A stretch of DNA of 64,000 nt from Salinibacter sp. 10B (GTDB lineage Bacteria; Bacteroidota; Rhodothermia; Rhodothermales; Salinibacteraceae). The number at the start of each line of letters is the position of its first letter. Positions within the stretch are counted from its first letter, which is position 1. The DNA lies in assembly GCF_002954405.1 (NCBI RefSeq), contig NZ_MQWC01000004.1, positions 3,102,668-3,166,667 of the forward strand, read 5' to 3'. Positions 12,689 to 23,366 of the stretch are shown piece after piece. A program made the position numbers and the translations under genes. The notes under the pieces are model-generated. The model did not search any database. It was not told where the DNA came from and saw only the letters and a program-made list of their open reading frames with translations.

Positions 12689-14368
12689 TTAGGCCTCGCA
12701 GCTGCGGCACGCCAGCAGGTCGCGCGAGAAGCTCTGCGCTGCGTTCACGCCGTTCTGGTAATAGAGCGACTTCACGCCCTTCTGCCACGCTTCCACGTAG
12801 AGCCGGTTGATGTCTTTCACGGGCGTGGACTTCGGGTCGATGGCGAGGTTGAGGCTCTGCGACTGGTCGATGTGCTTCTGGCGACCGGCTGCCTGATCGA
12901 TAATCGCCATCTGGCTGATCTCGCTGAACGTCTTGAACACGTCCTTTTCCCGATCGGACAGGAAATCAAGGTGCTGCACCGAGCCGTCGCGCAGGGCAAT
13001 CTGCTCCCAGACGTCGGCCGTGTCCTCGCCCTTCTTTGCCAGCAGGTCCTTCAGATACGGGTTTTTGTAGGTCACCTTCATCTTGGCCCGGTCCTGCACG
13101 AAGTAGTTGCTCTTAATCGGCTCAATGGACGGCGAGACCTGCCCGAGGATGAAGCTGGACGATTTCGTGGGGGCCACGGCCATTGTGGTGGCGTTGCGGC
13201 GCCCGTAGCCCTCCAGCACCTCGGGTTCGCCAAAGCGGTCGGCCAGCTCGCCAGAGGCGGCGTAGGACCGGTCCTTGATCGTCTTGGCGATCTCGGCTCC
13301 TTTCAGGCTCGCCTCCGTGGACTCAAACGGAATCATGTTCGACTGCAGGTACGAGTGCCAGCCCAGGATGCCGATGCCAATGGCGCGGTGCCGCTTCGCA
13401 AAGCGCACCGTTCGCTCCATGTGCTCCATTCCCTCGGCCCCCTCGATAAACTCCTGCATCACCGCGTCGAGAAAGTAGGTCAGCGTCTCCACGGCCTCGG
13501 TATTCTTCCACTCGTCGTAGTGCAGCGCATTCATGGACGAGAGGCAGCAGACGAAGCTCTCGTCGGGTCCGGCGGGCAGGGCGATCTCACTGCACAGGTT
13601 CGAGGCCTTCACGTCGTAGCCCTTGTCCTTGTAGACCTGCGGTCGTCCCCGCTGGATGTTGTCGCGGAAGAGGATGTACGGAATGCCGAGGTTCATACGA
13701 CTCTCCACCACCTGCGCCCACCGCTCGCGCTTCTCCGGGTCCCCGTCGATCATGGCCTGCATCCAGTCGTCACCCACGACAATGCCGTACATCATCGTCT
13801 GGATGGCGTCACCCTCCGTCTGGATGTTGAGCCACTCCTCCACGTCCGGATGCTCAATGTCGATGTACCCGGCAAAGTGGCCGCGTCGCGTCTCGCCCTG
13901 GCTTACGACATTGATGATCTTGTCGAAAAGCTGGGCGAACGGGTAGGTGCCGTTCGACGTGCCGTTGTTGCTGATGGGGGCGCCGCGCGGGCGGAGATCG
14001 CCAAAGTAGCCGCTCGTGCCGCCGCCGACCTTCGTCATCATCCCCACCTCGGCGTGCGTGTCGAGGATTGATTCCATCGTGTCGCCGATGTAGGAGCCGA
14101 AGCACGAGATCGGCAGGCCGCGGTCGAGGCCGAGGTTGGCCCACACGGGCGAGGCCAGCGAGTAGTAGCCGCGCGCCATGTACTCGTAGAACCGGTCCGC
14201 AAAACCGTCCATCTTAAGGATCGACTCGGCGTGCTCAGCGATCTCGCGGACGCGCTCTTCCGGCCCGGTATCGTCCAGCAGATAGCCGCGATGAAGGAAG
14301 GTGCGAGCCTCGTCGTTGAGCCAGGAAAAGTCGGGCGAGGTGGTGGGGCGAGACAGGGTTTTAGGCAT
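12689..14368 (-). CDS. nrdA: Class I ribonucleotide reductase, alpha subunit (short, no ATP cone)
   Basis: 559 aa from ATG 14368. It reduces ribonucleoside diphosphates together with NrdB. Visible catalytic elements are Cys89 (LPISCFGSY), the NLCSEIALP cysteine/glutamate pair, the following cysteine in FVCCLSSMNAL, the radical-relay tyrosines in SLYYQNGVNAA, and the C-terminal thiol pair CRSCEA. It is about 200 residues shorter than E. coli NrdA because the N-terminal ATP-cone is absent, which implies no ordinary dATP feedback inhibition through that domain. It lies 130 bp downstream of nrdB in the same direction, under the cobalamin riboswitch. Confidence 0.93.
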   Translation of the reverse strand: MPKTLSRPTTSPDFSWLNDEARTFLHRGYLLDDTGPEERVREIAEHAESILKMDGFADRFYEYMARGYYSLASPVWANLGLDRGLPISCFGSYIGDTMESILDTHAEVGMMTKVGGGTSGYFGDLRPRGAPISNNGTSNGTYPFAQLFDKIINVVSQGETRRGHFAGYIDIEHPDVEEWLNIQTEGDAIQTMMYGIVVGDDWMQAMIDGDPEKRERWAQVVESRMNLGIPYILFRDNIQRGRPQVYKDKGYDVKASNLCSEIALPAGPDESFVCCLSSMNALHYDEWKNTEAVETLTYFLDAVMQEFIEGAEGMEHMERTVRFAKRHRAIGIGILGWHSYLQSNMIPFESTEASLKGAEIAKTIKDRSYAASGELADRFGEPEVLEGYGRRNATTMAVAPTKSSSFILGQVSPSIEPIKSNYFVQDRAKMKVTYKNPYLKDLLAKKGEDTADVWEQIALRDGSVQHLDFLSDREKDVFKTFSEISQMAIIDQAAGRQKHIDQSQSLNLAIDPKSTPVKDINRLYVEAWQKGVKSLYYQNGVNAAQSFSRDLLACRSCEA

Positions 14369-14498
14369 AAACGGAGGAGCGAGAAAGGTTGAGCAAGCAT
14401 GTGGAAGACGTAGGAACGACCGGCACTGAGGCAGCATGACCTCGTTTCACTCGGCCCCCGGTCTCGTCCCTACGAGAGGAAAAATGCAATGCGCTAGA

Positions 14499-15473
14499 TC
14501 AGAATAGATCGTCCCCGCTCACGCTCTGCGTCATCTTGGAGTAGCTGGTGGAGCGTTTTGAGAAGAAGTCGTTGCCCTTCGTGAGCAGAATCTCCTCGTA
14601 GAACCAGCGGGTTTCGTCGAGCCGCTCCGGGTCGACCTCGAAGATCGGATTCACGTCTACATTCTTCAGCGAGCGGTTAAACTTGTCGCGCAGGAAGGCG
14701 TCCACGACCGGACGGGGCAGAAAGTCCAGCTCGCCCTCCGCAAAGATCCAGTCGAGGACCCGCTGCTCCGCGTCGTGGGCGCGCCGACAGGCGTCCTGCA
14801 CTTCGCGCTCAAACGCGGGCCCAAACCACTCGGGGTGCTCCTCGCGGATGACGTCGATCAGCTCCACCCCGAAGAGGCCGTGGATCTGCTCCTCCTTGGA
14901 GGTGGCCTCGACCGCATTGGCCACGCCCTTAAACCGCTTCTCGTACTTGTCGAACGAGAGCATGATGAGGAACTGGCTGAACAGGCTCACGTGCTCGATG
15001 AAGATCGAGAAGAGCAGGATGGCCTGGGCGAAGTCGCGGTCGTTTCCGGTCTCGATGCCCTCCAGCGCGGCGTTGAGGTACTGCACCCGGTCGTGCAGGG
15101 CCGGGATGTCTTCGATCTGCTCGAAGCGATCGCTCAGGCCCAGCAACTCCAACAGATGCGAATAGGCATCCAGGTGGCGCACCTCGCTCTCGGCGAAGGT
15201 CATGCCGACGGCCCCGACCTCCGGTACCGGCAGCCGGTCGTAGAGGTCGGCCCAGAAGGTTTTCACCGCGACCTCCACCTGCGCGATCGCGAGCATCGTC
15301 TTTGTGATGACGCTGCGCTCGGCGTCGGTACAGTTGACGCGGAAGTCCTGCACGTCGCCCTCAAAGTTGAACTCGTCGTGCACCCAGTACGACTGCCGGA
15401 TGGCCGTCTTGAATTCCAGCAGATGCGGATACTCGTAGGGCTTGAGGTTAACGCGCTCGTCGAAGATGGACAT
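14499..15473 (-). CDS. nrdB: Class I ribonucleotide reductase, beta subunit
   Basis: 324 aa from ATG 15473. Upstream in-frame codons run through the riboswitch and are rejected as coding. Ferritin-like helices carry probable dimetal ligands: a Glu in IAQVEVAVKTF, the ESEVRHLDAY segment with Glu, His and the radical tyrosine equivalent to E. coli Tyr122, IEHVSLFSQF, and SKEEQIHGLFG. The first ligand looks like Glu rather than Asp. The C-terminal tail (SVSGDDLF) fits the alpha-docking peptide. It supplies the radical for NrdA, and the pair is oxygen-dependent and B12-independent. Confidence 0.93.
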   Translation of the reverse strand: MSIFDERVNLKPYEYPHLLEFKTAIRQSYWVHDEFNFEGDVQDFRVNCTDAERSVITKTMLAIAQVEVAVKTFWADLYDRLPVPEVGAVGMTFAESEVRHLDAYSHLLELLGLSDRFEQIEDIPALHDRVQYLNAALEGIETGNDRDFAQAILLFSIFIEHVSLFSQFLIMLSFDKYEKRFKGVANAVEATSKEEQIHGLFGVELIDVIREEHPEWFGPAFEREVQDACRRAHDAEQRVLDWIFAEGELDFLPRPVVDAFLRDKFNRSLKNVDVNPIFEVDPERLDETRWFYEEILLTKGNDFFSKRSTSYSKMTQSVSGDDLF

Positions 15474-15643
15474 AGGGCTGCGCTCGTGACATAGAAAAAG
15501 CCTTCGGACGCCGGACGCGTCACGAAGGCAGCAGAGCGCAGAAGAAGTGTAGGAAGCCAGATGGGCTGTCGAAAACCATCGTTCGGGAACGACGGGGGCT
15601 CCGGACAGCCACACCAGCAATACACTCCACGTCGCGGACCGCA

Positions 15644-15694
15644 GCCCTATGACGCGTAGGGCGGATTGAGCTCTCTGCTCGGGCAGAGAGGCTC
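15644..15694 (-). promoter_or_regulatory. Two hairpins between B12 aptamer and nrdB (possible expression platform)
   Basis: Going 5' to 3' on the minus strand, a strong stem pairs plus-strand 15668-15678 with 15683-15694 (GAGC..TCTCTGC type arms). A second stem pairs GCCCTA with TAGGGC (15644-15662). Neither is followed by a clear T run, so whether regulation is transcriptional or acts at translation is unresolved. Confidence 0.45.
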
Positions 15695-15717
15695 GAGGAT
15701 GGGTCGCTCTCCAAGCG

Positions 15718-15802
15718 GGCATTCGGACTGTGACCGTTGCGCGACAGTGCCGGACTTTCACCGGGCTTTCCCCGAGACGCACCCGATAGTGATCGGAATG
15801 CC
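15718..15802 (-). ncRNA. Cobalamin (AdoCbl) riboswitch upstream of nrdBA
   Basis: Read on the minus strand, the region contains the hallmark cobalamin-riboswitch core in order: GGTGC, GGGGAAA, CCGGTGAAAGTCCGG, CACTGTCGCGCAACGGT, and a B12-box-like GTCCGAATGCCCGC. The closing helix is visible: plus-strand GGCATTC (15718-15724) is complementary to GAATGCC (15796-15802). It sits 245 bp upstream of nrdB. In Streptomyces an AdoCbl riboswitch represses the B12-independent class I reductase when B12 allows the class II enzyme to work; the same logic is inferred here. Confidence 0.9.
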
Positions 15803-16025
15803 GCCGCGCCACGACAGCGCGGCCTCGAAGAGGACGGGATGTTGCTAGAATGTGCCCGTCACGGTAGGACTCGACGCCGGAAATGTCAAGCTTCCACCCA
15901 TCGGCCTCTGTTATTGCGCCCGGGGAAAACGGTTGTCGAGTCGGGCGTACGGCGATTTCTACGAGGAATTCCCGTTTTTGTGAAGATCTGGAATCGACAC
16001 AAAACGGGCAGAGCGGGAGCTGCGC

Positions 16026-17531
16026 TTATGTCTCCATGGGGGCGGCCGTGTGTGGGTACATGTTGGAAATCGGAGGAGCGAAGAGGCCAACCTCATTGAA
16101 CGGCGCAATCGCGTCCTGCACGAATGAAGCGTAGTCCGTTTCCGCATCCGGTGCCCCTGCATTTCTGGGGAGATGTTGATGCGCTTGACGGGCAGCAGTT
16201 TGCAGGGCCTCCTCGTGGGCACAGAGGAACGTGGGCGGATCGTCGGGCACGCCGTCCGTATCCGCCCGACGGCGCTCGTAGGTGGTGGCGGCGGCAAAGT
16301 AGAGCATCGTACTAGCCGTCCACGCCTCGAATGACGGGAGCGCATCGTAGCAGAGGCGCACCAGATCGTCGACGAAGCGAAGCTCTTGCCGAACGGCCCT
16401 GCTGTAGTGCTGAAGAGCGGAAGCAGGCGGGGCCGGGCCATGTTGCTCGAAGAGACGAGCCAGCCGCTCGATCCCGCTCAGCGTGTGGGCGATACCGGTG
16501 CTGTGCAGCGGGTCGACGAATCCGGCCGTGAAGGGCAGCAGCGCCCACCCCGGCCCGGCCGCCTGATCCACGAGGCGCTGCAGCCGCCCGGTGCGGACGA
16601 TCTGGCTCGGGGGATCGATGATCTGGGCAGTCGCAAATCGATCAGCGAGCGTCGGATAGTCGTGCAGGTGCGCTCGCCACTCCTCTGGTGGAGACGCATC
16701 AGACGGAAACGGATGCGCTTTGGCGTCCAGAACGAGCCCTGCGCTCACCCGACCGTCGTCGAACCGCAGTTCCCAAAGCCATCCGTCGTCGAGAATGTGG
16801 TGGAGGGCCGCCTCGTCCGCCGGAAACGGATGGTCCGACGTCCGACCGCCGCGCTCGGCAAGCCACTCGTTCCAGCGGGGTAAATCTTGAAAGTGGGCGT
16901 AGAGCGCTCGGGAGTGCGTGTGTAGTGCCTCGTCTTTCTCGGCAAATCCGAGGGACGGAAGCAATTGGCCCCCACCCGTCGCGTCAATCACAACATCTGC
17001 CGTGCACTCTACCGGCTCCTCCTTGTGTTGTCCCTGCACGCGCCATCGTTCATTCCGCTCCACATCGGTCACGGTCGTGTTCTCCCACAGCGGAATGCCC
17101 GCCGATCGCACCTCGTCGGCCAGGAACGCATCGACGTCGGCCCGGAGCCACTGCGTATCCGCGTGGTACGGGTCGCTGCTCGCGGCCACCAGCAGCTCGT
17201 TGGCGTGTGTAGGGTCGGGGGCAAACGGCTCCCCGCGCCGGTGGCGGAAATAGCTGAACCCGCGCTTCCGCCCGCCGGTGACGTCCGGGTACGTTTCGCG
17301 CCAGGGGCCGTGCGCCGACAGCGGCTCTAAGCGGGGCAAGTCATAGCGGGTGGCCAGAGCGCGCAGGATCATGTTGGCCGTCGGCGTCGACGATTCTCCG
17401 ATCGCAAATCGCGGATGCTCGGCCCGGTCCAACACGACCGGCGCTAGGCCGATGCGGTCGAGCACCAGCGCCATGATGCAGCCCCCGAAGCCGGAGCCGA
17501 GAATCGCTACGTCGGCGTCGAGCCTTTCCAT
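16026..17531 (-). CDS. Flavin-dependent halogenase-like FAD monooxygenase
   Basis: 501 aa from ATG 17531; a longer start at 17597 overlaps the upstream stop codon. The N-terminal FAD-binding motif is GSGFGG (12-17). The family-typical PRFAIGESSTP (40-50) follows, a lysine at 89 sits where the catalytic Lys of tryptophan halogenases is found, and FVDPLHSTGIAHTL resembles the conserved FVDPLxSxG of the fold. The diagnostic WxWxIP is present only as GWLWEL (250-255), so halogenation itself is uncertain. It could be a hydroxylase or oxidase of the same fold. It is the last gene of a three-gene minus-strand cluster with the radical SAM and Asn-synthase-like genes. Confidence 0.78.
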   Translation of the reverse strand: MERLDADVAILGSGFGGCIMALVLDRIGLAPVVLDRAEHPRFAIGESSTPTANMILRALATRYDLPRLEPLSAHGPWRETYPDVTGGRKRGFSYFRHRRGEPFAPDPTHANELLVAASSDPYHADTQWLRADVDAFLADEVRSAGIPLWENTTVTDVERNERWRVQGQHKEEPVECTADVVIDATGGGQLLPSLGFAEKDEALHTHSRALYAHFQDLPRWNEWLAERGGRTSDHPFPADEAALHHILDDGWLWELRFDDGRVSAGLVLDAKAHPFPSDASPPEEWRAHLHDYPTLADRFATAQIIDPPSQIVRTGRLQRLVDQAAGPGWALLPFTAGFVDPLHSTGIAHTLSGIERLARLFEQHGPAPPASALQHYSRAVRQELRFVDDLVRLCYDALPSFEAWTASTMLYFAAATTYERRRADTDGVPDDPPTFLCAHEEALQTAARQAHQHLPRNAGAPDAETDYASFVQDAIAPFNEVGLFAPPISNMYPHTAAPMET

Positions 17532-17593
17532 GATGTGGGTGCTCTCATTCAAGGAATCTGCTATCCGCCTGGACGGTCGACGGCGGTCTGCGG

Positions 17594-18541
17594 TCACCTC
17601 TGCCGATCAGAGCAAGTACATTGCACCGGTGGTTGCACCGTCTGAGTTAGATTCATCCGCCGCAGGCGCTCCCGTCGCTTCGGGCCGCACGTTTCGCACT
17701 CATAGAAGCGCTCCAGGTCCCAGAGGTCCATGAAGACGCGGCTGCGATTCATGCGGAGGCCCTCCTCCAACACGGTTTCGATCGAGGGCATCGACGGCGG
17801 CTCGAAGTGGTCGTCCTTCTCCAGTTGCTGCATGATGCCGTTGCCGCTGCGGGTGGGCACGACGGACACGCACTGCACCCCGGCGTCGAACGCAAACTCG
17901 ATGGACCGCAGCGCCCACACCACGCCCTCGTCCTCGCTCAGAAATGGCGGGCGCAACAGGATGAAGGTCCGCACGTCAATGTCATTTTCGCGCAGGAAGC
18001 CGACGGCCCGGCGGAAGTCGTCGCGCGTCATGCGCTTGTTGAGGCGGTCGAGCACCGTGGGGTGCGCCGTTTCCAGTCCCAGCGCGATTTCGAGGCGGCC
18101 GCCGAGCCGGTCCCGAAACTCGACGCACACGTCGCGGCACAGCTTCGGGTGATTCTCGACGATCACCGTGTCGAAGTCTTGCACCCGCTCGGCAATCGCG
18201 GGCCGGTCGGACGGGGGGAAGGCTTTGCGGTCAAAAAAGTTGCCGCTGTTGTAAAGCTTGACGTGCCGGGCGTCGGGGAGCCGGTCCAGCGCATAATCGA
18301 TCTGTGCGGGCACGGCGCCCTCCGGCACCGTCTCGTCGGTCGTGTTCGTCCAGAGGTCGCACATGAGGCACCGGAATGGGCACTCCCGGTTCGTCAGGAA
18401 GAGCGTGGCCACATCGTCGACCGTGCCTGCTGCCGACCGCTCCTCTTCCACATGGTAGGCGTAGGGTTCCCACGGGTCGACATCGGCCTTCTCGGGCCGG
18501 GCGGCAACGATCTCCTCGTCAGTGTACTCTGGCAGTTCCAT
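17594..18541 (-). CDS. Radical SAM protein, Elp3/RaSEA-like
   Basis: 315 aa from ATG 18541. The [4Fe-4S]-SAM motif is C54-x3-C58-x2-C61 in CPFRCLMCDLW. The TIM-barrel core shows Elp3-like features (IALGLETAHPTVLDRLNKRMT). A C-terminal cysteine cluster (YECETCGPKRRE; QCTCSDRQR) could hold a second metal site. It resembles the TIGR01210/archaeosine-associated radical SAM group, but assignment is tentative. The halogenase-like start follows 60 bp after its stop, and the Asn-synthase-like gene ends 158 bp upstream, suggesting one transcript. A tRNA- or protein-modifying role is the alternative to small-molecule biosynthesis. Confidence 0.82.
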   Translation of the reverse strand: MELPEYTDEEIVAARPEKADVDPWEPYAYHVEEERSAAGTVDDVATLFLTNRECPFRCLMCDLWTNTTDETVPEGAVPAQIDYALDRLPDARHVKLYNSGNFFDRKAFPPSDRPAIAERVQDFDTVIVENHPKLCRDVCVEFRDRLGGRLEIALGLETAHPTVLDRLNKRMTRDDFRRAVGFLRENDIDVRTFILLRPPFLSEDEGVVWALRSIEFAFDAGVQCVSVVPTRSGNGIMQQLEKDDHFEPPSMPSIETVLEEGLRMNRSRVFMDLWDLERFYECETCGPKRRERLRRMNLTQTVQPPVQCTCSDRQR

Positions 18542-18699
18542 GAGGGGAAAAGCAATCTTGGAACGGAGCTGTCCCCCTTTCTCCGGTGGTGCCAACTTCT
18601 TGCGTTGAACGTTTAACGTTCCACGTCGACCCAATTATGGGTAGCAGGACCTCCGGAGGCAGCGAGGGCCTTAACGAATAGCAGTCCCGATTGTGGAAG

Positions 18700-20025
18700 C
18701 TACTCGTGAATCTCCGCAAAGGCCTGTCGGTACGCCCGCTCGGACTCAGGGAAGAGCTCGTCGAACCCGCCGTCATCCACGGCCCCGTGTTGAAAGCGCG
18801 TCTTTTCGAAAATCGGCATCTCCTGGCCGGTGATTGCCTCCACGCCGCGTTTCACGATCTCTCCCTTGAGCTCGTAGAGCTTGTCCGGCTCCCAGTCCGT
18901 GAGCTCGATGAACGGGATGTTTTCGGCCACCTCGATCACGTTCGGTAGCGTGTAGGGGCTGAACGGCTGGAAGTTGAGCGCCCGTGCGGGCGCGTAGCTT
19001 CGGACGTGACCCCGGCTCTGTCCCCCGGAGTAGGTAGCGGAATGCTTGAGCGCATCGACGCCCCAGCCCTCCTGGTAGAGCATCTGGTTGTTGAGCACAC
19101 TCCGGATGGTGAGCTCCGGATTCTCGTCGATCGGGTAGTCCTTCAGGTTCTCGTCGCCGCCGTCGCCGTCCACGAGATAGGTCCAGTCCGGGTAGCGCTC
19201 GCGGATGCCGCGGCAGAGGGCGAGCGTCATCGTGGCCGCCTGCACGTCGAGCGGCTTGTAATCCTCCGTCACGCGGATCGCCTCGCGAAAGTCCACCTGC
19301 TCCTTCTCGGTCTCCACGACCTCCAAGAACATCGACAGGTCCAGTGCATCGAGGAAGGCGTGGGCCTGCTCCACGTCCGAGCCGCCGCCCACCGACAGCG
19401 TGAACGCCTTGAGGCGCGTCGGCGCCTCGCCTCGCTCCAGCAGCAGATGGCGCAGCACGAGGAAGATCGAGCCGCTGTCGATGCCACCGGAGAAGAGCAC
19501 GCCGATCGGAGCCTCGTCGTCGATCCGATCGAGCCACTTGTTGCACTCGTCGGCCAGTGCGCCGATGTACGCTTCGCCGATGGCGTCGAGGTCGGCCGGG
19601 AGCGTACCCTGGTCGGGATCGAAGTAGCGGGTATAGCTCGGCTTCGGGTCGGGGCAGCCCACGAGCTGGAGCTCGGTGACGTGGTGGGCCGGCACCATGC
19701 GCGTGTACGACGGGTGGAACTGATCTCCAAGGCCCTCGCTCTCCAGAAACTCCTGGATCTCGTCCATCCGCTCGGCGACCACGAGGCACGGCCCCTCGCG
19801 CCGCTTCGCCAGGAAGTACCGCATGGGGCGCCCGATGGAACGGGCCATGCGGACCGTCTGGCCCTCCTTGTGCACGAGGGCGAACTGCCCGTCGATCGAC
19901 CGGATGCGCTCGGGATCGCCGGAGGCCATGGCCTCTGCGGCATCCTCCGCTGTACCATTCAGGAAAACGTTCTGCTCAGGATCGAGGAGATTGACAAGGC
20001 GCTCGACGTAGGCGTCCGTAGCCAT
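18700..20025 (-). CDS. Asparagine-synthase-like ATP-dependent amide ligase without glutaminase Cys
   Basis: 441 aa from ATG 20025; ATG 20052 would add nine residues. The N-terminal ~140 residues look like a degenerate Ntn/glutaminase domain (RSIDGQFALVHKEG; GRPMRYFLAKR). There is no N-terminal Met-Cys, so glutamine hydrolysis is unlikely. The synthase domain has the PP-loop LFSGGIDSGS (177-186) and the second nucleotide motif VDGDGGDE. Such proteins adenylate a carboxylate and pass it to an amine, as in beta-lactam synthetase and lasso-peptide cyclases. True asparagine synthesis from ammonia is possible but less likely. First gene of the cluster. Confidence 0.8.
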   Translation of the reverse strand: MATDAYVERLVNLLDPEQNVFLNGTAEDAAEAMASGDPERIRSIDGQFALVHKEGQTVRMARSIGRPMRYFLAKRREGPCLVVAERMDEIQEFLESEGLGDQFHPSYTRMVPAHHVTELQLVGCPDPKPSYTRYFDPDQGTLPADLDAIGEAYIGALADECNKWLDRIDDEAPIGVLFSGGIDSGSIFLVLRHLLLERGEAPTRLKAFTLSVGGGSDVEQAHAFLDALDLSMFLEVVETEKEQVDFREAIRVTEDYKPLDVQAATMTLALCRGIRERYPDWTYLVDGDGGDENLKDYPIDENPELTIRSVLNNQMLYQEGWGVDALKHSATYSGGQSRGHVRSYAPARALNFQPFSPYTLPNVIEVAENIPFIELTDWEPDKLYELKGEIVKRGVEAITGQEMPIFEKTRFQHGAVDDGGFDELFPESERAYRQAFAEIHE

Positions 20026-20309: not shown

Positions 20310-23300
20310 CTATGTGCGGTACTCCTCCGGATCGATGCCCAGCCGGTCCATCCGAGAGAGAAGGGTGGTCCGCTTTACGTCGAGCAGTTGCGCCGCTCCG
20401 TCTTCGCCCCCGACGACCCCGTCGGTCCGCTTGAGGGCTCGTTCGATGTGCCGGCGCTGGGCGTCCGCCAGTGTGTCGAAAGAAGCGGGGCCGTCGCGTC
20501 CGGTCGGGCCCGAGATGGACAGGTGTTCGGCCCGGATGCGAGGCTCTCGGGTGAGGATAACGGCCCGTTCGATGATGTTGGCCAGCTCGCGCACGTTGCC
20601 GGGCCAGTCGTAGTCTTCCAGCACGGCCATCGCCGTCGAGGTGATGCCCTCGATGGCCTTGCCGGTGCGCTGGGCGAACGTCTCCCGAAAATGCTCCGCC
20701 AACAGCGGAATGTCACCCGGACGGTCGCGGAGGGGCGGAAGCTCGATGGGAAAAATGTTGAGTCGGTAGTAGAGATCGTCGCGGAACTGTCCGGCGTCCA
20801 CTTCTGCCGTCAGGTCTCGATTGGTCGCGGCGAGGATGCGGGTGTCCACCTCGATGGTGGTACTGCCGCCCACCCGTTCGAACTCCTGGTGCTGCAGGAC
20901 GCGAAGGAGCTTGGCCTGCGTACCGAGCGGCAGCTCGCCGATCTCGTCGAGGAGGAGAGTGCCGCCGTCCGCCAGCTCGAAGCGCCCCTCACGTTGCTCA
21001 GTGGCTCCCGTGAACGCCCCGCGCTCGTGCCCGAATAGCTCGCTTTCGATGAGGTCGCTGGAGAGCGCCGCACAGTTGACCTTCACGAAGACCTCATCGG
21101 CTCGTGCGCTGCGGTCGTGAAGGGCCCGGGCCACGAGCTCTTTGCCCGTGCCGGTCTCGCCGGTGATGAGGACGGTCGTCTCGGTGTCGGCCACCCGCTC
21201 GATGGCATCGAACACCGTTTGCATGGGGGCGGAGGTGCCCACGATCTCGTCGAAGTTGTACTCGCTCTTCAGCTCCTCCTGCAGATACGATTTTTCAGAC
21301 TGGAGCTGGTCGACTTCTGCCTCGGCCTGCTTCAGGTCGTCGAGGTCGCGGAGGATGAGGAGGTACCGATCCTCGTCCGGCAACTGGACGGGGCAGAGCG
21401 TGGCCTCGACTGGAAAGGCGTCGCCGTCGGCCCGCCGGGCCTCCAGCCCGTTCGGGGCCGTGAGGTACCGCCCCTCCGGCACGACGTCGTCGTCGCTCTT
21501 TTGATACGCCTCAATGTGGCGTCGGACCAGGGCCTCGAACGACTCGCTGAGGAACGCGTCCATCGTCGTGCACTCTGCCTCGGTGGAGGCGCACCGGAAG
21601 ATCTCCTCTGCGGCCTCGTTGAACAACGTGATGTTCAGGTCGGCGTCGACGCTGATGATGGCATCGATCGCCGAGTCGATGATGCGGGTCAGGCGTTCCC
21701 GGCTCTCGCGGAGGGCCTGCTCGACGCGCCGCCGTTCCACATTCTCCTCCGTGAGCGCCGCGTTGGCGTCCTGGAGCTCGGCGGTGCGGGCCGCGACGCG
21801 CTCCTCCAGCCGGGCGCGCTGCTCCTGCACGGCCTCCAGCAGGCGCGCCTGTCGCAGGGCAATGGCCAGATGGTCGGCCAGCTCCCGCCCGATGCGGCGT
21901 TCCGCCTCACAGAACGCCTGTGCCTCCGTGGAGCCCAGATTGACGGTCCCGATCAGGTCGTCCTCGACCATCATCGGAACCGTGATGGCCGACTGGATGC
22001 CTGCTGCCCGGAGGCGCTCCGTTATGGCCGTGGAGGGCGCCGTGTCGAAGTCCGGCATGTCGTCGACCTCCCCCGCCCGCAGCCGGTCGTTGAGCGTAAA
22101 CTCGTCGATCGGGAAGGTCGTGCCACTCTCCAGCACCGGGTCCTCCTGATGGGCCGTGAGGACGCGGACCTGCTCCTCGTCCCAGTCGAAGAGGGACACG
22201 CTTACGCGCTCGCAAGGGACGATGTCCTGTGCCCGTCGGGCCGCGACGCTCGCAATTTCGGCAGGCGACTCGGCCGCCAGGATGGCCCGGTCCACGTCGC
22301 GCAGGGCTTCCAGGCGCTTGGCCTGCTGCTTCAGCTGCTCGTTGGCCTCGCGAAGCTCGGCGGTTCGCTCGTCCACCCGGGCCTCCAGGTCGTCCCGGGC
22401 CTCGCGCAGGGCCGTCTCCATGTGTTTGCGCTCGGTGATGTCGATCATCATCACCAGCCGCTCGGCATCGTCGGTGGCCGCAATGGGGCGCATCGTGAGG
22501 CTTACCCACACCCGCTCCCCGTCGGCGCGGCAAAGCTCCACTTCCGCGTCATGCATGGGCCCCCCGTCCTCCAGATGACGCTGAAGGTGCTGCACAGCGG
22601 ACTCGGTGTGCTGCACAGCGGATTCGCCGCGCTTTGCGGCCGCCTCGTCGTCGGTGGAGCGGATGCAGAGGTGCGGCATCTTCCGACCGATGAGGGCGTC
22701 CTTCGGGGCGCCCAAGAGCTCGGTCGCGCGCTGGTTGACCATCCGAATCTCACCCTCGGGGGTGACGGAGGCGTAGGCGACCGGTGCGCTTTCGTAGAGT
22801 GTGCGGTAGCGGGCCTCACTTTCTTCCAGGGCTGCCGCCTTGGCCCGCCGCTGCCGGTTGAGCTGGATGCGGTGGAGGGCCATTGAGACCTGTGCCGCCA
22901 GCATCTGGAGCACAGAGCGGTCCATGGACGTGACGGCGTCCGGGGCCACGTGGCCCGCCACAACAATGCCAAAGTCGCGGTCGATGGTGCCCAGGCGGAC
23001 GAGCGAAAGGCCCTCAATGCCAATGTCCGCAAGCGTTGGGTACATCTCCGGGTCCACAGCGAGGTCACGGTGGGACAGCCCACCAATGCCTTCGGAGGTG
23101 CGGAGGCCGACAGTGTTTTCCACCGTCCGGAGTTCCTGGAGGGCCGAATCGGATAGGGCCTTCGTGCCGGCACTGCCCACGACCAAGGGACCGTCGTCGA
23201 GTGTCTCGTTCAGCACCACGGCCTGCAGGTCGGCCAGCCCCATGGATCGGAGCGCGCCCGTGAGTAAGCGCCCGACCTCGTCGGACGAGTCCAGCAGGGC

Positions 23301-23366
23301 CAGCGCCGACCCAAACCCGAGAACCGATGAGGGATCCAAGTCCGAAGAGTAGTGCGACGGTTCCAT
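20310..23366 (-). CDS. Sigma-54-dependent activator with GAF-PAS-GAF-PAS sensory array
   Basis: 1018 aa. Order: GAF (~20-170), PAS (~180-310, [15 protein letters not shown]), coiled coil (~325-370), GAF (~370-525), coiled coil, PAS (~565-690, [14 protein letters not shown]), AAA+ domain (~715-945), and a Fis-type HTH at the C-terminus ([18 protein letters not shown]). The AAA+ part has Walker A GETGTGKE, the sigma-54 contact loop GAFTGA, and the DEIGELP Walker B region. It is unusually rich in sensory domains for a bacterial enhancer-binding protein. The MEDS sensor gene ends 40 bp upstream on the same strand. Targets are unknown. Confidence 0.93.

Follow-up and report, generated by a model that had tools for sequence, protein, structure and literature searches.

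What do an asparagine synthetase-like ligase, a radical S-adenosylmethionine (SAM) enzyme and a halogenase-like flavoenzyme do together in Salinibacter sp. 10B? Their genes, encoding the products P0003, P0002 and P0001 respectively, are neighbours in a 64,000-nt stretch of contig NZ_MQWC01000004.1 (the window; coordinates below are positions within it). An earlier, sequence-only reading of this DNA held that the three act on one substrate to give an undescribed small molecule or a modified peptide or RNA base. Comparison with other genomes reveals an obligate pairing of the ligase with the radical SAM enzyme, which the flavoenzyme joins in some lineages, and makes it likely that the pair is tied to secreted beta-propeller proteins of the CRTAC1/UnbV_ASPIC type.

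An obligate pair and a lineage-dependent flavoenzyme

The genes were sought in a panel of 60 genomes representing the Salinibacter genus, family and order. Strong matches to P0002 and strong matches to P0003 occur in the identical 12 genomes (hypergeometric probability 7e-13). P0001 is present in those 12 and in G055, there at a contig edge. The sequence-only reading had suggested a check of gene order, and the three genes are neighbours in all 12 of the genomes that carry them; in G008 the ligase and radical SAM genes are about 3 kb apart and in G048 they lie at the edges of two contigs. Within the genus the trio is found in two of 13 genomes.

A search of genome contigs detected 220 relatives of P0002, and the analysis used the 80 with the highest identity to it; shares among these 80 loci describe near relatives and not the whole family. 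They derive mainly from Planctomycetota, then from Bacteroidota, Acidobacteriota, Gemmatimonadota, Nitrospinota, Marinimicrobia and others. The stretch around P0002 contains the ligase gene in 51 of the loci and the flavoenzyme gene in 42, and the flavoenzyme is linked to the pair in four phyla. Where the ligase is not near P0002, an orthologue (E < 1e-100) is encoded elsewhere in 24 of 25 genomes. Routine unlinking in relatives had been named as grounds for abandoning a shared function. The genes are indeed often unlinked in Planctomycetota, yet they co-occur in those 24 of 25 genomes and the objection holds in form only.

P0001 is present in 14 of the 15 planctomycete genomes tested, with a weak partial match only in the fifteenth, and was found in none of 14 other pair-carrying genomes, mostly Bacteroidota. 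On the strength of linkage or genome-level co-occurrence, therefore, the core is an obligate pair of ligase and radical SAM enzyme; the flavoenzyme is outside it and depends on the lineage. We regard it as very probable that the genes form one functional unit. The proposal that all three work together thus stands as far as linkage and co-occurrence in several phyla go, but gives the flavoenzyme a place in the core that the 14 genomes do not support. The tree of radical SAM sequences displays seven changes between phyla against a minimum of six, suggesting old and mostly vertical inheritance of this gene. The sequence-only reading had seen no precursor, carrier protein or exporter with the cluster, and none is conserved among the trio neighbourhoods compared. 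DUF1501 and other recurrent neighbour clusters in planctomycetes were judged to be lineage-wide genes and not conserved with the trio.

Association with CRTAC1 proteins

Neighbour clustering, a hidden Markov model of the recurrent neighbour and a check against Pfam identified FG-GAP/UnbV_ASPIC (CRTAC1) genes near the pair. In 29 loci with the ligase and without a linked flavoenzyme, a CRTAC1 gene occurs within 8 kb of P0002 in 15; with 8% per locus as the highest rate compatible with CRTAC1 densities across whole genomes, the binomial tail is 9e-10. An alternative count of 17 out of 23 (2e-21) carries a bias, since some of its loci had been picked for having CRTAC1. In about a dozen genomes a CRTAC1 gene precedes the ligase gene, and ten such proteins form one clade. 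A metagenome-assembled genome (MAG) from Gemmatimonadota (L072) carries, in order, CRTAC1, ligase, radical SAM enzyme, flavoenzyme and a long CRTAC1 with tetratricopeptide repeats (TPR).

The association extends to genome content. UnbV_ASPIC proteins (PF07593) are present in all 12 trio genomes and in all 29 carrier genomes sampled from several phyla. CRTAC1 of the linked type, defined by a match to the L072 protein with E < 1e-100, is encoded by all 12 trio genomes as opposed to 11 of the other 48 (Fisher 1e-6; 1.5e-4 by permutation within families). The long form, recognized by its C-terminal domain, is found in 11 of 12 and 12 of 48, respectively; in the twelfth trio genome, G046, a contig end truncates a CRTAC1 gene close to the trio.

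Several observations weigh against so close a tie. CRTAC1 genes are abundant, from 1 to 31 per genome, and the linked type in those 11 trio-less genomes indicates that CRTAC1 needs no trio. Some of the correlation across genomes might be due to genome size and life style. Only four of 33 full trio loci have CRTAC1 nearby, and in Salinibacter sp. 10B itself CRTAC1 is encoded elsewhere on the chromosome, away from the trio. Among planctomycetes with unlinked genes, seven ligase genes are each transcribed away from an adjacent long TPR-CRTAC1 gene; these divergent pairs belong to one lineage and, counted once as such, are not significant. The relation is one-sided in that the trio goes with CRTAC1 and CRTAC1 often occurs without the trio. 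On balance we consider it likely that the pair is tied to CRTAC1/UnbV_ASPIC proteins.

A literature search returned no description of the ligase/radical SAM pair together with CRTAC1. Many bacteria have CRTAC1/UnbV_ASPIC proteins in abundance and relatives exist in humans, yet we found no established role for them in bacteria. An obligate enzyme pair tied to these proteins would therefore provide a genetic handle on that role and allow a concrete search for the substrate.

The surroundings of CRTAC1 suggest electron transfer outside the cytoplasm, a context that goes with CRTAC1 in general. Near the pair or its CRTAC1 genes are genes for multihaem cytochromes that also have TPR or membrane parts. 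In Bacteroidota the order CRTAC1, ligase, radical SAM enzyme, c554-like multihaem cytochrome, CRTAC1, TPR protein, CRTAC1 is seen at L050, L071, L077 and L092, the last with its left end cut by the contig. The c554-type cytochrome was considered as the true partner of the trio and rejected; genomes that lack the trio have it as well as those that carry it, often beside CRTAC1, and it therefore belongs to CRTAC1.

In Salinibacter sp. 10B a same-strand run (L141 6638–12984; contig C4 about 2118600–2125000) encodes three proteins: a TPR-CRTAC1 of the long form, a UnbV-type CRTAC1 and an RnfD/NQR2-like membrane protein. The run recurs in G008, G013 and G032, and at L087 an RnfD-like gene with CRTAC1 adjoins the pair. 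The arrangement presumably resembles the UnbV/UnbU genes of enediyne clusters; a literature search on those genes returned nothing. The long CRTAC1 ends in a domain of about 450 residues that matches nothing in Pfam and has an invariant GSC motif (e.g. L141 9505–10887). A structural model of this domain is of low confidence (pLDDT 65) and has only weak matches, to jelly-roll folds such as CBM32 with Z scores of 7–8. Few alignment columns separate trio-linked from trio-less CRTAC1 (N290-F291, D327, E397, L462), with no obvious modification site.

Other neighbours of the pair in Bacteroidota and Marinimicrobia are a protein resembling the alpha subunit of hydrazine synthase (HZS; L042), RidA (L058) and a YNCE/MauG-like haem protein (L075), the last a propeller protein with a MauG/RoxA-like haem domain. 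Solute-binding proteins are encoded near the pair at L058 and L090. A study of the enzymes of anammox reports HZS-like clusters that combine CRTAC1 with homologues of periplasmic haem proteins and ATP-binding cassette solute-binding proteins (PMC12758564). The same kinds of gene flank the pair at L042, L058, L075 and L090, although the terms 'asparagine' and 'radical SAM' are absent from the text of that paper.

The three enzymes

The earlier description of three minus-strand genes separated by 158 and 62 bp is correct for ATG starts. The features are as follows.

18700–20025, minus strand: open reading frame of P0003, 441 residues, predicted asparagine synthetase-like ATP-dependent amide ligase without the glutaminase nucleophile
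20052, minus strand: alternative start of P0003, a second in-frame ATG; homology starts near 20025
19474–19491, minus strand: PP-loop SGGIDS of P0003, from sequence and family alignment
17594–18541, minus strand: radical SAM gene, P0002, 315 residues, RaSEA-like; homology starts after the ATG at 18541
18634, minus strand: alternative start of P0002, an upstream in-frame TTG
18359–18382, minus strand: CxxxCxxC motif of P0002 (C54, C58, C61) for a [4Fe-4S] cluster and SAM, from sequence and family alignment
17612–17698, minus strand: C-terminal cysteine cluster CxxC...CxC of P0002, a possible auxiliary Fe-S or Zn site
16026–17531, minus strand: flavoenzyme P0001 with ATG start, halogenase family, PltM/tetracycline 7-halogenase branch
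17597, minus strand: alternative GTG start of P0001 (open reading frame 17597–16026), giving a 4-bp overlap with the P0002 stop
17265–17267, minus strand: codon for Lys111 of P0001 (numbered from the GTG start), from alignment with PltM
16767–16781, minus strand: WLWEL of P0001, the family variant of the halogenase motif WxWxIP, from alignment

Is P0003 an asparagine synthetase? Its sole Pfam match is Asn_synthase (PF00733), at 53 bits and above the cut-off. The family alignment, also the input to AlphaFold2, comprised 44 sequences of 57–91% identity. Over 58 family rows the PP-loop SGGIDS has its first glycine replaced by alanine in 13 and its isoleucine by valine in 14, the rest being invariant, and the alignment displays no conserved Cys, Ser or Thr that could serve as N-terminal nucleophile. 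The PP-loop and the missing cysteine reported for the window therefore hold across the family. The AlphaFold2 model (mean pLDDT 88) matches beta-lactam synthetase best (Z 25.1, 364 residues, rmsd 3.7), as the sequence-only reading had anticipated, then human ASNS and AsnB (Z 24.4–24.5), carbapenam synthetase (Z 22.3) and the hydroxyamidotransferase TsnB9 (Z 20.0). By Pfam score, conserved PP-loop and predicted fold (Z 24–25) P0003 is assigned to the AsnB superfamily as an adenylating amide ligase. It is, as judged from its sequence, not a glutamine-hydrolysing AsnB: the nucleophile is lacking and the TIGR01536 score, 47.5 bits, is below the curated threshold of 267.

The model aligns with each known enzyme only from about residue 29–40 onward (37–39 in AsnB and ASNS), so the strand with the glutaminase cysteine is missing, rather than the cysteine merely mutated. 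Its loss from the model makes direct use of glutamine by P0003 very unlikely, and the amine would come from another source. With beta-lactam and carbapenam synthetases P0003 shares the two-domain AsnB architecture, the PP-loop, a conserved C-terminal K-x-R and the absence of the glutaminase cysteine. It differs in lacking the first 35 or so residues of the N-terminal nucleophile domain, in overall sequence (identity about 11–16%) and in its own conserved motifs GCPDP, ELTIRSVLNN and QEGWGV, and no beta-lactam pathway genes are near. P0003 would thus add a truncated, glutaminase-less branch to the asparagine synthetase superfamily. In one MAG contig (G071, C511) the ligase gene is in two pieces covering model positions 2–216 and 215–439 (L185, L186), perhaps through an insertion or an assembly error.

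P0002 carries the radical SAM motif CxxxCxxC in all 87 family rows that cover the site, and a C-terminal CxxC...CxC in about 77–80 of 89 rows; both cysteine patterns had been noted in the window sequence. The latter indicates a possible second metal site, auxiliary Fe-S or Zn, in nearly 90% of members. The closest named family is RaSEA (TIGR01210), matched by 37 of 37 family members, with P0002 itself scoring 127 bits against a cut-off of 212. Models for the SPASM domain or for the recognition element (RRE) of ribosomally synthesized and post-translationally modified peptides (RiPPs) gave no match, and a sequence search of the PDB returned similarity at the level of the CxxxCxxC motif only, with no relative of P0002.

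In archaea ArcS adds lysine and RaSEA converts the adduct to archaeosine, the two enzymes forming a complex (PMC11298593). The trio may share this two-enzyme logic, in which a partner joins an amine before the radical cut (PMC11298593), but P0002 is bacterial, scores under the family cut-off and is partnered by an asparagine synthetase-type ligase instead of ArcS. Nor does the trio need the preQ0 pathway: QueC is missing or below its cut-off in six of the 12 trio genomes, including the nearly complete G033, G034, G046 and G054. By the curated score and the QueC pathway P0002 is classed as distinct from RaSEA, its closest named family. A plasmid search gave no match to the ligase and only two relatives of the radical SAM enzyme, of 26% identity, on the Streptomyces plasmids pFRL3 and pFRL5 (L108, L109). 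There the gene is beside others for a P450, serine hydroxymethyltransferase, glycosyltransferase and carbamoyltransferase, perhaps a natural-product cluster.

P0001 matches Trp_halogenase (PF04820) with 58.9 bits, the cut-off being 21, and in the PDB tetracycline 7-halogenase (CtcP-type) and PltM with E about 1e-37. Similarity to these halogenases is long and includes the FAD motif, a GES motif, the position of the catalytic lysine and a D-P-L-x-S-x-G motif. K111, present in 42 of 42 family rows, aligns with the catalytic lysine of PltM, which we take to be K87. In distinction to PltM and CtcP, the P0001 family has W-x-W-x-L in place of WxWxIP (40 of 42 rows), so the GWLWEL noticed in the window is a family trait, and the gene is linked to one for a radical SAM enzyme. 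The sequence places P0001 in the halogenase family and fits a halogenase or a hydroxylase equally. Besides halogenases its best NCBIfam matches include the maturases QhpG and GoxB, with a QhpG score of 75.4 bits that is below the curated 240.

Proposed function and alternatives

What, then, might the enzymes make? Tentatively, and with less than even confidence, we propose that the trio is a conserved biosynthetic or maturation module that acts stepwise and ends in service to CRTAC1. P0003 would adenylate a carboxylate with ATP at the PP-loop and couple it to an amine that does not derive from glutamine, as the loss of the glutaminase strand implies. P0002 would then generate a 5′-deoxyadenosyl radical and cleave or rearrange the ligated product; by analogy with ArcS and RaSEA, where lysine is joined and the radical enzyme releases the rest, a primary amide could remain. 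P0001, with reduced FAD, O2 and the conserved lysine, would halogenate or hydroxylate an electron-rich ring. The product may serve the secreted CRTAC1/UnbV_ASPIC propellers as ligand, cofactor or attached group, a destination proposed because of the gene association. The chemistry of ligation, radical cut or rearrangement and halogenation or hydroxylation is a doubtful part of the scheme. Against it, C-N cleavage is borrowed from a relative as distant as the RaSEA score of P0002 indicates, and the substrate and product are predictions. The module as such is real, conserved and apparently undescribed: its enzyme superfamilies are known, whereas their combination and the partner are new. By the tests made the module is not AsnB, RaSEA or QhpG, although it may work like parts of them. 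The reaction of P0002 would show how far the strategy of attaching an amine and then cutting by a radical reaches beyond archaeosine.

One alternative places the CRTAC1 polypeptide itself as substrate, with the enzymes introducing a cross-link, an amide or a ring hydroxylation to create a protein-derived cofactor for a periplasmic redox system. There is precedent, as the radical SAM enzyme QhpD and QhpG, a flavin monooxygenase of halogenase fold, mature quinohemoprotein amine dehydrogenase (QHNDH; PMC7876137). That system likewise has such a pair serving a periplasmic protein, and the QhpG and GoxB matches of P0001 point the same way, as do the CRTAC1 clade upstream of the ligase in Bacteroidota, the multihaem, HZS-like and MauG-like proteins that accompany pair-linked CRTAC1 genes, the RnfD/NQR2-like protein beside CRTAC1 genes in Salinibacter sp. 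10B and at L087, and the GSC motif of the unnamed domain. However, P0001 is far under the QhpG cut-off and was not found in the genomes with the tightest CRTAC1 linkage, P0002 matched no SPASM-type or RRE model, QHNDH subunits were not seen, the trio-specific CRTAC1 columns are a handful, and CRTAC1 proteins exist without the trio and in humans (9etn). We consider this reading rather unlikely. Unlikely also is the still more specific idea that the pair, with the flavoenzyme where present, makes a new redox cofactor or installs a protein-derived one for the CRTAC1/UnbV propellers. If true, it would be a system like that for pyrroloquinoline quinone, with new chemistry and spread over several phyla, in which multihaem cytochromes or RnfD-like membrane proteins work alongside CRTAC1.

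Possible but questionable is another reading, that the trio makes a secondary metabolite that is diffusible and stands alone, such as a halogenated amide; the CRTAC1 link would then reflect shared life style or genome plasticity. The enzyme types are typical of natural-product pathways, occurrence in the genus is patchy, full trio loci seldom have CRTAC1 nearby, and distant radical SAM relatives occur in the Streptomyces plasmid clusters. Against this, the trio has no conserved companion gene for a carrier protein, an exporter or a regulator, the tree of radical SAM sequences for the most part tracks the phyla and the local excess of CRTAC1 has a P of about 1e-9. Unlike typical metabolite clusters, moreover, the pair is kept though unlinked in nearly all carrier planctomycetes tested. 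Of the other products that the sequence-only reading entertained, a modified peptide of the RiPP type is very improbable. Relatives of asparagine synthetase do form the macrolactams of lasso peptides, and also C-terminal amides or nitriles (PMC13060819), and a lasso-like or other precursor might have been overlooked. Among short open reading frames (18–110 residues) between the genes and up to 2.5 kb to either side, however, none is conserved except in near-identical planctomycetes and as antisense frames of other genes, and no leader peptidase or RRE partner was seen. A linked precursor is disfavoured because of this result; a distant, unlinked one is compatible with a search covering 2.5 kb. 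An archaeosine-like RNA base, with P0002 acting as a bacterial RaSEA and the ligase replacing ArcS, is extremely improbable: RaSEA is the closest family of P0002, but the TIGR01210 cut-off is not reached, P0003 belongs to the AsnB superfamily, and half of the trio genomes, without QueC, are hence without the usual route to preQ0 de novo.

Flanking genes

Named from sequence, the flanks of the trio are a sigma-54-type regulator (20310–23366) and ribonucleotide reductase genes (12689–15812). An AdoCbl-II (cobalamin) riboswitch, scoring 41.6 bits, is located at 15709–15788 on the minus strand, between the ribonucleotide reductase genes and the trio, and probably controls nrdAB rather than the trio.

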